Source of the DNA: Pseudomonadota bacterium
Lineage (GTDB): Bacteria; Pseudomonadota; Gammaproteobacteria; Burkholderiales; JABEVD01
Assembly (NCBI GenBank): GCA_021848825.1
Contig: JAJZTQ010000004.1
Span: 1-45,936 of the forward strand
Direction: 5' to 3'
Length of the DNA: 45,936 nt
Below, one piece after another: positions 135-9,586 of this stretch. The notes under the pieces are model-generated. The model had not been told where the DNA came from, searched no databases, and saw only the letters and a list, made by a program, of their open reading frames with translations. The translations under genes were made by a program, and so were the position numbers. Each line of letters opens with the position of its first letter. Position 1 is the first letter of the stretch.

Positions 135-2474
135 GTGAGCGTCAATCTGGACGATTACGCGGAGCTCGTCGACGAGTTGAGCCCCGAGTCGCAGGAAGTC
201 TTGCGATCGAGCTGGCTTGATGCGACAAAAATCTATTCCCCCCGCGGGCTGGACAACTACATCAAGGGTGCCGCCGCGTTGAGAGGACTGGGCCGCGGCT
301 GCAACCTGGTCGTCGCCTGGCTGGAGAATGCCCCGCAGGTTGCCAAGGAAGTCGGGGAAGATGTCGTCGGCGACCTCGCCACCACTGCCCTGAAGCTCGC
401 ATCGAAAACTTCGGGCGCAGTGATCGAAATGATGCTCGCCACGGCCCCCACTGCCGCCAACAGGCTGGGGGATGCGGCGCTTTTCCAGAAATACCTGCAG
501 TTCCTGAACACGCTCCTTGCCCAGGCCCCCAGAGGGGTGAGGCCGATGCTGGAGAAGCTCGATGTGCTCTTCTCGCAGCTCACATTAGGGGGGCTGAGGC
601 GCTGGGCAACATGGGGAGCGCATGCCCACAGGACGAATTACGAGGAACAGATCAGGTATTTCGGGCTCGAATCCAAGGAATCCCTGGCTGTATTGCAGAA
701 GGAAAGGAAGGGAACCCTTTTCATCGACGTCCAGCGCAGGATCAACATGTATCTGAGGGCGCTCTGGGCGCGGGACTTCTTCATGAAGCCCACCTCGGGA
801 GACTTCGAAAGCCGCGAAGGCTACAAGCCATACGTCGAGGATTACTTCATCAATCTTCCCGATGCCTATGACGATTTCGAGGGAATGCCCGGGCTTGAAG
901 TGTACCGCGCAGCAGCGGCGCATGCAGCGGCCCATATCGTCTATACCAGAGAGCCTATTTCAGCCGAAGCCCTGAACAGCTGGCAGATGGCGGTGATCTC
1001 GGTGATAGAGGATGCAAGGGTGGAGACGCTTGCAATCAGGAAATTTCCGGGACTCCGACAGCTCTGGGCGAAGATGCATCTTGCAAGCCCCGATCTCTGC
1101 ACCAGTGCAGGAGACTATCTCAACCGGCTGGCGCGCGCCCTGCTGGATGAGGACTACCGGGATGATGATCCCTGGATAGGGCAGGCGCGGGCCTTGTTCA
1201 AATCGGCTGAAAATTTCGAAAGGAACGAGATCTCCTGGGACATAGGGGTAACGCTCGCCCATTCCTTCCTGGATAAGAAAATTCCATTCAATCTTCGCAC
1301 GGACGTGCTCTCCGCGCCATACCGCGACGACAACCGCTATTTCTGGGCTTTCGAGGAATTCGATTTCGACAAGGCCGCTGCTGCAGGGTATGAATCCGTC
1401 AAGCAGGTCAGGAAGTACGTCAACGTCATGGAAATGGCGAATGAAATCGATGTCGAGACGGCCGGGGATGATGCCGAAGAGATCTGGGTACTTTCCACCG
1501 AGCTTTATCCTTACGAGAACATAGGGGAAGAGAGCGGGGGAAAATCCTTCAACGAGACGGAAGGAAAGGAGCCTGTTTCCGAACCTTATCATTATTCGGA
1601 GTGGGATTACCAGATCCAGCTCGAGCGGCCGTCCTGGGCGACTGTTCTGGAGAAGCGCGCGAAATCGGGGGATCTTCAAGTCATCGAGGACATTGCCTCC
1701 CGCAACAGGCGCATCATTTCGAAAATGAAATTCATCCTCGATGCGATGCAGCCTCAGGGCGTCCAGCGGATCAGGAAGCTCGAGGATGGGGATGAAATCG
1801 ACATAAATGCCGCGATCCGCGCCCAGATAGACATCAGGATGGGATTGCAGCCCGATCCCAGGATCATGATGCGATCCGTGAGAAAGACGAGGGATATCTC
1901 CGTTCTCGTGCTGCTAGACCTTTCCGAATCGACCAATGACAAGGTTCACGGGCAGGAGAAGACCGTCCTCGAGCTCACCCGCGAAGCCTGCGTATTGCTT
2001 TCCGATGCGATTTCGAAGGTTGGCGATCCTTTCGCCATTCACGGCTTCTGCTCGGATGGGCGGCACAATGTCGAATACTTCAGATTCAAGGATTTCGGAG
2101 AGGCTTACGACGAGAAGCCGAAGGCGAAGATTGCAGGAATGACGGGAAAGCTCTCGACGAGAATGGGGGCTGCAATCCGTCATGCATCCCATCACCTGAA
2201 GCTGCAGAGATCTTCCAAGAAGCTCTTGATGGTGATCACGGACGGCGAGCCCGCCGATGTCGATGTCAGGGATCCCCAGTACCTGCGCTATGACACGAAA
2301 AAGGCAGTGGAAGAAGCGGGAAGAGACGGCATCGTCACCTACTGCATGAGCCTCGATCCCAGGGCCGACCAGTATGTCTCCAGGATATTCGGGGCGAGAA
2401 ACTACATGGTCGTCGACCAGGTCGAGCGCCTCCCTGAAAAACTCCCGCTATTGTATGCAGGATTGACGCGATGA
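135..2474 (+). CDS. cbbO: CbbO RuBisCO activation protein with C-terminal VWA domain (first copy)
   Basis: CbbO is the adaptor of the CbbQO activase. Its VWA domain contacts RuBisCO while CbbQ hexamers supply ATP-driven remodelling that releases inhibitory sugar phosphates. The protein has about 779 residues from GTG 135. The frame continues upstream to an ATG at 39, but that stretch overlaps cbbQ out of frame and is arginine/proline-rich nonsense, so I reject it. The C-terminal VWA domain carries a complete MIDAS: DLSES at 595-599, Thr675 in LSTRMGAAIRHA, and Asp703 in ITDGEPAD. The large N-terminal region matches the second CbbO (6307-8523) along its length, for example ALWARDFF versus GMWEREAS and VSVIEDARVETLA versus AEIFEDSRVEYLA. 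It follows cbbQ by 11 nt. The last 12 codons are duplicated downstream (see the repeat). Confidence 0.9.
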   Translation: MSVNLDDYAELVDELSPESQEVLRSSWLDATKIYSPRGLDNYIKGAAALRGLGRGCNLVVAWLENAPQVAKEVGEDVVGDLATTALKLASKTSGAVIEMMLATAPTAANRLGDAALFQKYLQFLNTLLAQAPRGVRPMLEKLDVLFSQLTLGGLRRWATWGAHAHRTNYEEQIRYFGLESKESLAVLQKERKGTLFIDVQRRINMYLRALWARDFFMKPTSGDFESREGYKPYVEDYFINLPDAYDDFEGMPGLEVYRAAAAHAAAHIVYTREPISAEALNSWQMAVISVIEDARVETLAIRKFPGLRQLWAKMHLASPDLCTSAGDYLNRLARALLDEDYRDDDPWIGQARALFKSAENFERNEISWDIGVTLAHSFLDKKIPFNLRTDVLSAPYRDDNRYFWAFEEFDFDKAAAAGYESVKQVRKYVNVMEMANEIDVETAGDDAEEIWVLSTELYPYENIGEESGGKSFNETEGKEPVSEPYHYSEWDYQIQLERPSWATVLEKRAKSGDLQVIEDIASRNRRIISKMKFILDAMQPQGVQRIRKLEDGDEIDINAAIRAQIDIRMGLQPDPRIMMRSVRKTRDISVLVLLDLSESTNDKVHGQEKTVLELTREACVLLSDAISKVGDPFAIHGFCSDGRHNVEYFRFKDFGEAYDEKPKAKIAGMTGKLSTRMGAAIRHASHHLKLQRSSKKLLMVITDGEPADVDVRDPQYLRYDTKKAVEEAGRDGIVTYCMSLDPRADQYVSRIFGARNYMVVDQVERLPEKLPLLYAGLTR

Positions 2475-2664
2475 GACTTCGGATGGCTACCCCTTGGGCC
2501 ACCAGCCCTCAAATGGGAGTTTTCGGCGCAGGGTAACTTCGCTACGCGAAGTTGAGCGAAGCGGCCGGAACCAAAAACTCCCGTTGCTTTATGCCGGTTT
2601 GACGCGATGAGACTTCGGATGGCTACCCCTTGCGCCACCGGCCCTCAATTGGGAGTTTTCGGCG
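2439..2664 (+). repeat. Two diverged 90-bp direct copies of the cbbO 3' end and trailer
   Basis: Copy 1 (2439-2528) holds the last 11 sense codons and stop of cbbO plus 54 bp of trailer. Copy 2 (2575-2664) repeats all of it 136 bp further on. Both encode KLPLLYAGLTR and then TGA. Four of the eleven codons differ between copies, and every difference is synonymous (CTA/TTG, TTG/CTT, GCA/GCC, GGA/GGT). The trailers are nearly identical. Each copy begins with AAAACTCCC or a close variant and ends with GGGAGTTTT, so it is bounded by a 9-bp inverted repeat. Copy 2 has no start codon and cannot be translated as a gene. I read it as the 3' end of a diverged cbbO allele left by recombination, but an assembly artefact is possible. 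Confidence 0.85.
2535..2553. repeat. Perfect 8-bp stem hairpin between the two cbbO-end copies
   Basis: AACTTCGC (2535-2542), loop TAC, GCGAAGTT (2546-2553). It sits in the 46-bp spacer separating the two 90-bp direct copies. No T-tract follows on either strand, so a simple intrinsic terminator is unlikely. It could be a REP-like palindrome or mark the join between the two copies. Confidence 0.6.
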
Positions 2665-5503: not shown

Positions 5504-6307
5504 ATGGTCGACGTCGATCAGTACAGGATAAAAGAGGAACCTTATTATCAGCCGCAGAAAAGGGAAATCGCCCTTTTCGAGGCGGCCTACGAATCGAGGA
5601 TGCCCGTCATGCTCAAAGGGCCCACAGGGTGCGGTAAATCCAGGTTCGTCGAGCACATGGCATGGAAGGTCGGAAAACCGCTCGTCACGGTGGCCTGCAA
5701 CGAGGACATGACCGCATCCGATCTCGTCGGCCGCTTCCTGCTCGATGCCGGGGGAACGAGGTGGCAGGATGGCCCATTGACGCTCGCGGCCAGGATGGGC
5801 GCGATATGCTATCTAGACGAGATCGTGGAGGCCCGGCAGGATACCACCGTCGTCATCCATCCCCTCACCGACTACAGGAGGACACTACCGCTGGACAAGA
5901 AAGGGGAACTCATCCATGCCCATCCCGACTTCCAGCTGGTGATTTCATATAATCCGGGCTACCAGTCCCTGTTGAAGGATCTGAAGCAGTCCACGAAGCA
6001 GCGCTTCTCCGCGATGGAATTCGACTATGCCGAACCGATGGTCGAAGCCGGAATCGTCGCGAAGGAAACAGGAACGGATAGGGACATCGCCGAAAAGCTG
6101 GTCAAGGTTGCGCATGTTTCTCGGAACCTCAAGGGGCACGGCCTGGAAGAAGGCATATCGACGCGGCTTCTGGTGCATGCCGCGACGCTGATCGAGAACG
6201 GGATAGCGCCAAATGAGGCCTGCGAAATGGCGCTCGTGAATCCCATCACGGACGATGCCGACATCAGGGACACGCTCAATCACGCCATCGCTTCCGTTTT
6301 CGGCTGA
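5504..6307 (+). CDS. cbbQ: CbbQ AAA+ RuBisCO activase motor (form II-associated)
   Basis: This is a MoxR-family AAA+ ATPase of 267 residues. It has Walker A GPTGCGKS at 39-46, Walker B ICYLDE at 101-106, a sensor Asn150 (SYNPGYQS), a likely arginine finger Arg167 (STKQRF), and a C-terminal helical domain ending in NPITDDADIRD. Together with CbbO it forms the ring that removes tight-binding inhibitors from RuBisCO at the cost of ATP. ATG 5504 is preferred to the upstream in-frame region, which only reads through the cbbM end and the terminator. The gene lies 61 nt after cbbM and its stop overlaps the cbbO start (TGATG). Confidence 0.95.
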   Translation: MVDVDQYRIKEEPYYQPQKREIALFEAAYESRMPVMLKGPTGCGKSRFVEHMAWKVGKPLVTVACNEDMTASDLVGRFLLDAGGTRWQDGPLTLAARMGAICYLDEIVEARQDTTVVIHPLTDYRRTLPLDKKGELIHAHPDFQLVISYNPGYQSLLKDLKQSTKQRFSAMEFDYAEPMVEAGIVAKETGTDRDIAEKLVKVAHVSRNLKGHGLEEGISTRLLVHAATLIENGIAPNEACEMALVNPITDDADIRDTLNHAIASVFG

Positions 6308-8523
6308 TGAACGAGATCAAGTGCGGCTTCCCGCGCGTCATCCAGGTTTTCGGGGATTGCCTGGAAAGGGCATCGAGCCTGCTTTCCGCTTCGGGCGTGA
6401 AAGCCTATGTCGAAGGCGCGCAGACGATCTGCAAAATGGGGCGGGGGGAGGAGCCAGTGCTCGCTTACCTGGAGGAAATGCCCCTGACTGCGTCGATTCT
6501 CGGGGAGGAGATCATACCCAAGATCGTGGAATTCGTCAGGAGTCTCTCCAGGACCCCGAATGGCCGCGCAATCGCCCCATTTCTTGAGAGCATGATATCG
6601 GTTGCGAAAGCGCTAGAATCTCGCGGGCTTTTCCTCGAATACATGGCGCTCGTGAAGGAAACCATGAAGAGGACGACGCCCAGGGTCCACGGCATCGATG
6701 CGATGTATCCGAGCGCATGCCTTGCAGAATTCCTCTCCAGCGTCCCCAGGCTTTTTCGGGAGCTCTCCCTGGCCGGGGTCAGGAACTGGGTGGAATCCGG
6801 CATCGCGGGTCACGCCCATGACCCCGATTCGCAGAAAAGCTACTTCCTGCTCCAGTCTGCGGACAGCCTCGCGATACTGCAGCGGGAGCGCCACGGCACC
6901 CTTTTTTTCGACAACGAGAAAAAGCTCGATCATTATCTCAGGGGAATGTGGGAGCGGGAGGCATCATTCATTCCCTATTCGAAAGCCTATGACATATTGA
7001 GAAAACCCGTTCCCTATCATGACGATCTGGGCATCCATCTTCCCGATGTCTACGACGATCTTCCGGAAGTCAGGGGAATAGACCGGTACAGGGCGCTGCT
7101 CGCCCATCTTTGCGCCCATCTGAAATGGACAAGCCCGGTCATCGCCGACAACCTGAGCCCTTTTCAGCGCATCGCTGCTGAAATATTCGAGGATTCCCGC
7201 GTGGAATATCTCGCGATGAAACAATATCCGGGTCTCTCGAAGATCTGGAAGAAGCTCCATCCCGTTCCGAAGGAGGGGGCCTGCCCCGAAGGCTGGTCGG
7301 AAATACGCCACAGGCTTTTCACGCTGTCCCGCGCCATGCTCGACCCTGATCATGGCTACAGGAATCAGGCGATACTGAAGCATTCCGCGAAGTTTCTGGA
7401 AGTCATGAAGAATGGCCCTTCGTCCACGGAAGAGATGGTGAATCTGGGGGTGCAATTCATCGCTGAAACCCGGGTCAGGAGCGACCTTTCTGCAAAAATA
7501 TTTTTCGACGACACGGAGGTCGAGTATCGCGACGACAACAGGCTGATGTGGCGCTTCATCGAGGAAGGGGACGAGGAGGAATACGACCGGAAACCCGACC
7601 GCCGTCATGAATCGGGCGAAATGGAAAGGCTTCCTCCCAGGCTTTACCCGGAATGGGACAATTCCCGCGGGCACTACCTTCCGGACTGGGTGAGCGTTTA
7701 CGAACATCTCCACCCGAAAGGAAGTCCATCGAAAATAGACAATCTCCTTTCAAGGCACAGGGCGCTCGCAAAAAGGCTGGAAAAGCTCATAGATCTGCTG
7801 AAGCCGCAGAACAGGGTGAGAATCCGCTACCAGGAAGAAGGCGCCGAGCTCGACATCGATGTGGCGATAAGATCGCTGATCGATCTCAGGAGCGGGGCAT
7901 GGCCTGATTCCCGGATCAACATGAATCACAGGCACGACGGCCGGAGCATCGCGGTTTCCCTGCTTCTGGATCTCTCGGCTTCCCTTGCGGATATCCCCGC
8001 AGGCGGAACGAGGACGAAGCTCGAAATCAGTCAGGAGGCGGTTTCGCTTCTGGCCTGGGCAGTCGAAAAAATAGGCGATCCCCTGGCGATAGGCGGATTC
8101 CATTCGGACACGCGGCATGAAGTGCGCTATTTCCATTTCAAGGGCTACGGGGAGCATTGGGGAGAGCAGGTGAAGGGCCGCCTTGCCGCCATGGAAGCGG
8201 GTTTTTCGACAAGGATGGGTGCGGCATTGCGCCATGCCGGCCATTATCTTTCCCATCAGCAGGCCGACAAGAAGCTTCTCCTCGTCCTGACGGACGGCGA
8301 ACCATCCGACGTCGACGTACAGGACCCGAAATTTCTTACGGCCGATGCCAGGATGGCCGTCAGGGAGCTCGGCGCGAAAGGAATTTACGCCTATTGCATC
8401 AGCCTGGACAAAAAGGCTGACGAATATGTTTCGGACATATTCGGAAGCCATTACGCGGTCATCGACAATGTGGAAAGCCTCCCGGACAGGCTGCCCAGCC
8501 TCTTCATGACCCTGACGAAGTGA
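6307..8523 (+). CDS. cbbO: CbbO RuBisCO activation protein with VWA domain (form II-associated)
   Basis: The product has 738 residues and is a paralogue of the CbbO at 135-2474. The MIDAS is intact in the C-terminal VWA domain: DLSAS at 555-559, Thr635 (FSTRMGAALRHAG) and Asp663 (LTDGEPSD). The N-terminal helical region contains conserved stretches such as LPDVYDDLPEVRGIDRYRA and EIFEDSRVEYLAMKQYPGL (parts shown). Its ATG overlaps the cbbQ stop by 1 nt, implying translational coupling and a fixed Q:O ratio. Established work on chemoautotrophs distinguishes Q1O1 pairs (acting on form I) from Q2O2 pairs (acting on form II); position next to cbbM places this one in the second group. Confidence 0.95.
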   Translation: MNEIKCGFPRVIQVFGDCLERASSLLSASGVKAYVEGAQTICKMGRGEEPVLAYLEEMPLTASILGEEIIPKIVEFVRSLSRTPNGRAIAPFLESMISVAKALESRGLFLEYMALVKETMKRTTPRVHGIDAMYPSACLAEFLSSVPRLFRELSLAGVRNWVESGIAGHAHDPDSQKSYFLLQSADSLAILQRERHGTLFFDNEKKLDHYLRGMWEREASFIPYSKAYDILRKPVPYHDDLGIHLPDVYDDLPEVRGIDRYRALLAHLCAHLKWTSPVIADNLSPFQRIAAEIFEDSRVEYLAMKQYPGLSKIWKKLHPVPKEGACPEGWSEIRHRLFTLSRAMLDPDHGYRNQAILKHSAKFLEVMKNGPSSTEEMVNLGVQFIAETRVRSDLSAKIFFDDTEVEYRDDNRLMWRFIEEGDEEEYDRKPDRRHESGEMERLPPRLYPEWDNSRGHYLPDWVSVYEHLHPKGSPSKIDNLLSRHRALAKRLEKLIDLLKPQNRVRIRYQEEGAELDIDVAIRSLIDLRSGAWPDSRINMNHRHDGRSIAVSLLLDLSASLADIPAGGTRTKLEISQEAVSLLAWAVEKIGDPLAIGGFHSDTRHEVRYFHFKGYGEHWGEQVKGRLAAMEAGFSTRMGAALRHAGHYLSHQQADKKLLLVLTDGEPSDVDVQDPKFLTADARMAVRELGAKGIYAYCISLDKKADEYVSDIFGSHYAVIDNVESLPDRLPSLFMTLTK

Positions 8524-8584
8524 TGGAGGCGCGCGCGGAAAACCTGTAAAATTGCTCGACTAAAGAAAACAAACAGGAGAAGCA

Positions 8585-9586
8585 ATGAGCAAGAGTCTTT
8601 TGCAATTCATCATTGAAGAGCAAAGAAGCATTCCGGAGGCCACGGGGGATTTCACCGGTCTTCTCAACGACATCGTGTCTGCCTGCAAGCAGATCGCCCA
8701 TGACGTCAACAAGGGCGCGCTGATCGGCGTGCTTGGCAGCGCGGGAAGCGAAAATGTCCAGGGAGAGACGCAGAAGAAGCTGGATGTCATCACCAACGAA
8801 GTATTCATCAAGGCGAACGAATGGAGCGGCCATCTCGCCGCAATGGCTTCCGAAGAAATGGATGACATCTACCCCATTCCTTCCAGGTATCCGAAGGGAA
8901 AATACCTGGTCACTTTCGATCCTCTCGACGGATCCTCCAACATCGACGTGAACATTTCGGTAGGCACCATCTTTTCCATCCTGCGCTGCCCGGAAGAAGT
9001 GACCGATCCCGCTGCTGCGGACTTCATGCAGCCCGGAACGAAGCAGGTCTGCGCAGGCTATGCGCTTTACGGTCCTGCGACGATGATCGTGCTCACCACG
9101 GGAAACGGCGTGAACGGCTTCACCCTAGACCGCGATGTGGGCGACTTCTTCCTGACCCATCCCAATATGACCATTCCTGCCGATACTTCGGAATTCGCGA
9201 TCAACATGTCCAACCAGCGTTTCTGGGAAGAGCCCGTGCAGCGCTATGTCGAGGAATGCATCAAGGGAAAGGATGGCGGGAGGGAGAAGAACTTCAACAT
9301 GAGATGGGTTGCATCCATGGTTGCGGAAGTCCACAGGATATTGACCCGCGGCGGCATATTCATGTATCCGAAGGATACGAAGGATCCTTCCAAGGCCGGG
9401 AAATTGAGGCTGATGTACGAAGCCAATCCGATGTCCTTCATCGTCGAGCAGGCGGGCGGCATGAGCTCCACGGGGCGCGAAAGGATCATGGAAATCCAGC
9501 CGTCGGGGCTTCATCAGCGCGTGCCCGTGATACTGGGTTCGAAGAACGAGGTGGAGCGCGTCGTCTCGTACCATAAAGGACTTTGA
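8585..9586 (+). CDS. fbp: Class I fructose-1,6-bisphosphatase
   Basis: The enzyme hydrolyses fructose-1,6-bisphosphate to fructose-6-phosphate in the regenerative arm of the Calvin cycle and in gluconeogenesis. It has 333 residues, the normal class I length. The signature metal/phosphate segment [13 protein letters not shown] lies at 111-123, with Glu90/Glu91 upstream (ASEEMDD). The substrate-binding block [19 protein letters not shown] is present near the C-terminus. An AGGAGA site lies just upstream of ATG 8585. It heads a four-gene run with purE one nt downstream. The 61-nt gap after cbbO contains a -10-like TAAAAT (8547-8552) but no clear -35, so readthrough from cbbO is possible. Confidence 0.96.

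Follow-up and report, generated by a model that had tools for sequence, protein, structure and literature searches.

Why should a bacterial gene carry its own 3′ end twice, in two versions that spell the same peptide with different codons? The question is raised by a 45,936-nucleotide stretch of DNA from a Burkholderiales bacterium (contig JAJZTQ010000004.1; "the window" means this stretch at its full length), in which the end of a cbbO-like gene is followed by a second copy of itself. The direct repeat comprises positions 2437–2532 and 2573–2668, each 96 nt long and 90% identical to the other. A sequence-only reading of the window had recognised the duplication and placed the copies 136 bp apart, but that figure is the start-to-start distance and the gap between them is 40 bp. 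Both copies encode KLPLLYAGLTR followed by a stop codon, and 4 of the 11 tail codons differ (CTA/TTG, TTG/CTT, GCA/GCC and GGA/GGT), all of them silently. The stretch after the stop codon is duplicated too, and differs at 4 of 58 nt against 6 of 38 nt in the coding part. AAAACTCCC / GGGAGTTTT arms flank each of the two copies, and a perfect hairpin, AACTTCGC-TAC-GCGAAGTT, lies between them at positions 2535–2553; here, as with the shared peptide and its four silent changes, our examination of both copies agrees with the earlier reading. We conclude that a small, non-autonomous mobile unit, about 140 bp in length, has probably inserted more than once, in series, at the cbbO 3′ end, and that the locus is what is left of these insertions.

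The gene tail and the stretch between its copies differ in their distribution. A 21-base probe taken from the block (up to 3 mismatches) finds two places in the window, its own, and none in 100 shuffles, and the 96-nt block has two significant places in the 2.74-Mb genome, the four other matches being at chance level (E 1.5 or more). When positions 2380–2700 were compared with 100 related genomes, many matches were limited to the stretch between the copies, with several per genome and some in tandem at a period of about 143 bp. The possibility of a dispersed repeat, raised in the sequence-only reading, therefore holds in many genomes for the intervening stretch and fails for the gene tail. An alignment of 14 copies of this core, the window's included, has 27 invariant columns, and the covariance model made from it finds the core in 102 of the 300 genomes searched from the order (E≤0.01), with up to 18 candidates scored per genome and copy numbers that are thus lower bounds. 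The genome of the window accounts for seven matches at the same threshold, which lie at cbbO, alaC, nrdB, acs and the murG 5′ end. A class-wide draw has the core in 2 of 274 genomes at E≤1e-6, both from the window's order, and comparison thus confines the core to one order within the samples searched. Over 81 distinct core sequences 95.4% of stem cells are paired, and both sides are changed in 154 instances against 50 in shuffles, in an alignment that, having been fitted to the model, is biased in its favour. Rfam gives a single match for positions 2300–2800, at E 4.4 and far under its gathering score, and we rejected membership in a known structured RNA family on this basis. No match for positions 2430–2680 was found in phage and plasmid collections, and viral contigs have one exact-pattern core.

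Many of the dispersed cores are, like that of the window, placed between two copies of a gene end. A direct repeat across the core with a score of at least 30 was found at 50 of 88 usable matches (38 of 66 loci), and the maximum in 1,760 shuffles was 27. In a second set, of at least 119 stretches found by pattern, 38 of the 119 matches listed have a gene-end copy (shuffle maximum 22); this set overlaps the first, sharing contigs such as G097:C8, G285:C62 and G054:C17, and is not independent of it. The genes with copied 3′ ends, as confirmed by family models, are gap, nrdB, nrdA, acs, alaC, trpE, argF, ftsW, smpB, folE2, glmS, serS and yggX. Copied 5′ ends, with the gene on the opposite strand, are those of murG, nuoD and an acetyl-CoA acetyltransferase, likewise confirmed, and of aroE by eye (the names aroE and cbbO were given by eye and context). 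Besides cbbO, the genome of the window has copied ends at alaC, with three tails, at nrdB, where the three tails are one amino acid apart, at acs and at the murG 5′ end. The carriage of gene ends at many genes is thus established by comparison, with the same arrangement and the same core at more than a dozen gene families, and an assembly artefact was rejected as the general cause because the arrangement recurs in many genomes.

The silent recoding is general, though not universal. Thirty tail pairs pooled have 155.5 synonymous differences over 330 sites and 57.5 nonsynonymous differences over 1,116 sites, a ratio of nonsynonymous to synonymous differences per site (pN/pS) of 0.11 (bootstrap 0.08–0.14), uncorrected for multiple hits and drawn from cases that are not independent. 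Five of 35 rows were dropped from this calculation: L031, L063 and L105 (gene on the other strand), L079 (gene uncertain) and L137 (the same locus as L092). The low ratio argues that the copies, while diverging, were in use as functional gene ends, and the protein-level selection proposed from the window alone is borne out when the loci are pooled.

Which of the two copies is native can be judged where a relative has an empty site. At cbbO of genome G007, compared with the empty site of G001, identity is 93–96% in the gene body, 70% in the upstream tail, 97% in the downstream tail and 93% in the downstream DNA. Three empty sites were seen for alaC and two compared: G007 against G006 gives 96% for the body, 83% for the upstream tail and 96% for the downstream tail, and the window's own genome and G003 against two empty sites give 79–83%, 61–69% and 80–81%, respectively. 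At both genes the downstream tail is closer to the empty site than the upstream tail is, which argues that the downstream copy is native, that the upstream copy came with the element and that the body was not exchanged. A native body with a foreign upstream tail and a displaced native tail is, by this comparison, established at cbbO and alaC. Between G007 and G003 the nrdB tails agree at 53 of 54 positions (98%) and the bodies at 228 of 270 (84%), so that tail sharing extends beyond that of the body and the tail appears to have moved between species. The sequence-only reading had taken the window's downstream copy for an old tail left behind when a relative's cbbO allele replaced the resident one. 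The old tail is found downstream at cbbO of G007 and at alaC of three genomes, although both of the window's copies look element-borne. The replacement of the allele is not upheld, since the gene body is native at polarised sites and the foreign part amounts to the last ~11–20 codons and the hairpin.

The same comparisons define the parts of the locus, as follows (↓ marks a unit border, A and A′ its two arms):

39–2474, + strand: cbbO-like reading frame with the tail LPLLYAGLTR; the true start is probably at about 135 (by eye), past the end of the upstream gene.
2436–2447, + strand: left border G↓AAAA and arm A (GAAAAACTCCCG), within codons E-K-L-P.
2437–2474, + strand: upstream (functional) tail, KLPLLYAGLTR-stop.
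2475–2513, + strand: post-stop part of the first unit.
2514–2523, + strand: arm A′ (TGGGAGTTTT), the reverse complement of part of arm A.
2520–2576, + strand: conserved core hairpin, with the inner perfect hairpin at 2535–2553; covariance model score 69.9 bits, E 2.2e-17, for a copy that belonged to the model's training set.
2573–2610, + strand: second (displaced) tail, KLPLLYAGLTR-stop.
2611–2648, + strand: post-stop part of the second unit.
2649–2659, + strand: arm A′ of the second unit (TTGGGAGTTTT).
2656–2696 (approximately), + strand: decayed core of the second unit (CGGCGGAGGC...), recognised by eye; its counterpart in the relative G005 (L019, 1402–1452) is a weak model match of 21 bits.

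Each tail in the window is followed by an A′ arm and a core or core remnant, and we therefore read both as successive element-borne ends. A native third cbbO tail is not recognisable in the window, whose cbbO has no close empty relative for comparison.

Both borders of the unit are conserved, and the border motif is established by comparison of 37 first units. The left border reads GAAAA in 30 of these, GACAA in 5, and GATAA and CAAAG in one each, so that GA[AC]AA is present at 35 of 37 against a background of 0.2% per position. These 37 were hand-copied from 51 placements with 14 array-internal ones excluded, and those of L031, L050, L075, L085 and L093 were shifted by a few bases to the nearest GAAAA; the register is set by the AAAA at the end of the core, and the only wholly free base is the G. 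At the right border, GCC is followed by A(A/C)AA in most copies. The distance from A to the core has a median of 84 nt and is within 80–91 in 36 of the 51 placements.

Arm A′ lies directly before the core and reverse-complements the stretch of gene found at the left border. It pairs better with the upstream A in 26 placements and with the downstream A in three, with 22 ties, and 42 of 51 exceed the 95% shuffle level; the placements are not independent, with orthologous genes and several members of a single array among them. In seven ftsW units, with the structure taken from one of them, the A:A′ helix is 98.9% paired with four pairs changed on both sides, and the covariation score was reached in none of 500 shuffles. 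Comparison thus establishes the pairing of the two arms. The TTTC or TTGC at the head of the core goes with the base, A or C, in position two of the right flank (counts of 141, 15, 2 and 7; odds ratio 33), in 165 of 182 rows that are not independent and were partly chosen by a pattern demanding TTTC. In the predicted single-strand fold the two arms pair with each other and the core forms a closed hairpin of its own, which would bring the two ends of the unit together. For one ftsW unit the folding energy is −73 kcal/mol (z −8.2), and an nrdB unit has a z of −1.7. We looked in 15 wide regions for a longer form in which cargo separates the arm from the core; the core was recovered in 10 of them, and in these no convincing distant upstream copy of the sequence following the core was seen.

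The unit would therefore consist, in order, of arm A (about 8–18 nt of the target gene, starting GAAAA or GACAA), a replacement gene end with its stop codon, A′, and a core of about 50 nt ending in GCC. Insertion would take place at G↓A(A/C)AA within a conserved gene end, with the gene body rejoined to the recoded end that the unit brings and the native end displaced downstream, behind the core. We infer that A′, together with the TTTC or TTGC start of the core, recognises the target by pairing with the A sequence of the recipient gene, that the unit may recombine as a folded double hairpin with its ends abutting, and that a recombinase or nuclease supplied in trans would perform the joining.

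To look for such an enzyme, we compared 38 core-rich genomes (at least five core matches) with 38 core-free genomes among the 300 of the order; 20 of the latter were listed as without a match, and the others were taken as negative from their absence in the match list. The threshold was E≤1e-60 for the integron integrase and 1e-5 for other enzyme families. The integron integrase (TIGR02249) is present in 27 of 38 core-rich and 11 of 38 core-free genomes (p 0.0005), counts that include one match per side below the curated cut-off, one of the two with stop codons. Counted by family, the only way in which phylogeny was handled, the figures are 17 of 20 and 10 of 30 (p 0.0004). Within the window's own genus the gene is intact in G008 and partial at a contig edge in G005, and short, high-scoring matches to the integrase model at G000:C6:3213–3362 (L275) and G007:C26:52833–53084 (L276) may be remnants of a lost integrase gene in the window's own genome and in G007. 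Y1 transposases show no association (26/38 and 21/38, p 0.35; no match in the core-rich G028, G155 and G262), and membership in the repetitive extragenic palindromes (REPs) with their associated tyrosine transposases (RAYTs) was rejected on this ground. Reverse transcriptases (RVT_1) are present in 14 of 38 genomes on either side and absent from the window's own genome, and IscB (RRXRR) in 1 of 38 and 2 of 38; we accordingly rejected a retroelement (group II intron, diversity-generating retroelement or retron) and an IscB-type RNA-guided element.

The integrase association raises the alternative that core and arms together form an attC-like site with lengthened, gene-specific outer boxes, and that the units are mini-cassettes which the integron integrase inserts into gene ends. 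Shared features are a folded hairpin, tandem units, and, by eye, an asymmetric internal loop and an inner box, GGCTAAC..GTTAAGC, similar to that of one attC candidate in G050; off-target action of integron integrases is also known elsewhere (PMC10127599). We nonetheless regard this alternative as unlikely. The attC outer boxes, RYYYAAC and GTTRRRY, are absent, and the borders are instead G↓A(A/C)AA and, mostly, GCC↓A(A/C)AA (with AAAA the commoner form in each), on which ground a gene cassette or attC in the strict sense was rejected. The units are found at housekeeping genes rather than behind attI, their cargo is a gene end, and core-rich G028, G153 and G076 have no integrase gene. A scan of 10 places with an integrase or a remnant, drawn from 11 sources of which two coincide, showed a core at only one, which led us to reject a cassette array beside intI and attI, and attC candidates were present in one of nine regions scanned. 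With the association on one side, and the borders and the scarcity of cores at integrase places on the other, the integron integrase or a relative is the leading candidate for the enzyme and the sole one with statistical support, although not a demonstrated one.

A second alternative dispenses with a dedicated enzyme: donor DNA, or an excised circle, carrying a tail and core could enter by ordinary homologous recombination, through a single crossover in the short tail, with the core as a passenger hairpin. The native-like first half of the upstream alaC tail in G007 fits this explanation, and tandem arrays, such as those at gap (L047, three cores) and folE2 (L099, four cores), fit unequal crossover. 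However, cbbO of G007 is foreign from within about 12 nt of A, directly after its native body, and alaC of the window's own genome and of G003 switches at A as far as a background divergence giving ~80% identity allows. The conserved left border and the tracking of the upstream A by A′ are also not accounted for, and we consider homologous recombination as the whole explanation to be rather doubtful.

Static tandem duplication, in which replication slips at the hairpin and the spare copy then drifts, is very improbable. Near-identical arrays do exist (gap in G037 has a period of 143 bp at 99% identity), and slippage could stand for identical arrays alone; it is contradicted for the recoded cases, because drift would leave many nonsynonymous changes in the spare copy, because the spare copy rather than the functional one is nearer to the empty site at cbbO of G007 and at alaC, and because two species have an nrdB tail in common beyond the gene body. 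The idea that recombination with a relative replaced the cbbO allele agrees with the silent differences between the copies, but has almost no chance of being correct given the native bodies at polarisable sites and the recurrence of core and arrangement at so many other gene families.

Several observations weigh against the insertion of mobile units that we prefer. That reading rests on comparison, and movement itself is proposed, none having been observed directly. Cores without a gene-end copy are common, accounting for 38 of 88 matches in the first set and 81 of 119 in the second. Six of the 30 tail pairs have no difference at all, identical tails being seen for example at gap in G037, at folE2 and at one glmS, so recoding is not obligatory. 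The one empty site for nrdB, in G008, does not polarise the copies (80–83% upstream, 83% downstream). The upstream alaC tail of G007 is identical to the native sequence over its first half, and the border is therefore not perfectly sharp; a crossover within the tail fits there as well as an insertion at A does. For the ftsW units the count of further pair types is not above that in shuffles (368/500), and covariation between A and A′ could come in part from template switching in an inverted repeat. The fold of the window's unit is not unusually stable (z −0.5). Finally, 11 of the 38 core-rich genomes lack the integron integrase, the window's own among them save for the short possible remnant, and no linked enzyme was seen: the 25 largest protein clusters near 120 loci are, by eye, only the neighbourhoods of target genes. 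No homing endonuclease was recognised by eye among these clusters, and an element-encoded one was rejected on this ground and because the unit is too short for a reading frame beyond the gene end.

Among known systems, integrative elements at gene 3′ ends, such as SXT in prfC, restore the gene that they enter, encode their own integrase and have a single fixed target. The putative units are similar in supplying a replacement gene end with the old end left at the far side, but differ in having one core with many gene-specific ends. Like REPs and REPINs with RAYTs, they are small, non-autonomous hairpins dispersed near genes; we know of no REPs that carry gene ends. The core consensus also lacks, at its 5′ foot, the GTAG/CGTC tag given for REPs (PMC3733652), although, by eye, GTAG is seen close to the 3′ end of core copies that have T at a variable position. 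A miniature inverted-repeat transposable element (MITE) of a DDE insertion sequence was rejected for the class with gene ends, whose arms are derived from the target and differ per gene instead of forming fixed terminal inverted repeats.

The genetic outcome resembles one known from fungi. PMC3630166 describes mobile open reading frames (mORFs) of fungal mitochondria, in Glomus and, as cited there, Allomyces, that bring in a foreign C-terminal end and leave the native end downstream; they are about 1–2 kb long and encode LAGLIDADG or GIY-YIG endonucleases, and at Glomus atp6 one end is 91.2% like that of a relative while the two ends are 63.5% alike. Introns in Tremella duplicate part of the host gene (PMC7315562). 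The arrangement at cbbO in G007 and at alaC in three genomes is that of the mORFs so described, with a foreign, diverged end fused to a native body and the native end displaced. Unlike these mitochondrial elements, the unit proposed here is bacterial, is about 140 bp long, has no reading frame beyond the gene end and carries an arm that complements the target gene in sequence.

We suggest, tentatively, that the units may constitute a new class of bacterial mobile element, in which a base-pairing arm, A′, beside a universal hairpin specifies the target; such units would home to the same gene end in other species, carry a recoded end that keeps an essential gene working, and stack in layers, with one trans-acting enzyme serving many interchangeable targets. 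No description of such an element was found in the open-access literature of PubMed Central, by phrase searching that is blunt and extends to neither preprints nor subscription papers, and within that limited coverage the element is apparently undescribed. In this large bacterial order roughly one sampled genome in three has the core. If the interpretation is correct, part of the core copies are ~140-bp units by which the ends of essential genes would be swapped between species with their bodies untouched, a hidden route of gene-fragment transfer and a natural counterpart of recoded homing drives, and the universal hairpin with its exchangeable pairing arm may offer a new programmable insertion chemistry.

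Some cores have other settings. Those at L042, L043, L044, L045, L052, L030 and L056 lie inside longer repeats, several ending CAGGCCGTTGAAAAA / TTTTTCAACGGCCTG, without a gene-end copy. Some cores of G050, G028 and G043 are, by eye, inside longer repeats with CAGGCCGTTGAAAAA-like ends, and these may be MITEs. A string test for CAGGCCGTTGAAAAA-like ends was negative at all 119 matches of the second set, which leaves many cores without a gene-end copy unexplained. Arrays at L046, L101, L102 and L019 are located at contig ends, so units probably break short-read assemblies and are under-counted.

The window has two different cbbO-like genes, at 39–2474 (with the duplicated tail) and at 6307–8523; the end region of the second, 8300–8700, has a different tail and no such repeat. 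The product of the first has a Pfam VWA domain (residues 622–783) and matched no NCBIfam family, and the name cbbO therefore rests on the sequence-only reading and on the position beside RuBisCO-type genes.

At nrdB of G003 (L113) there is a recoded, element-type tail, near-identical to that of G007, with no core after it, and imported gene ends may thus outlive the element unnoticed. At ftsW (L200, L217 and L222) and serS (L050 and L093), downstream copies are scrambled over 4–15 nt right after the border AAAA and near-identical in the rest. The scrambling differs between related species, and these stretches are possibly repair scars or an escape from renewed targeting.

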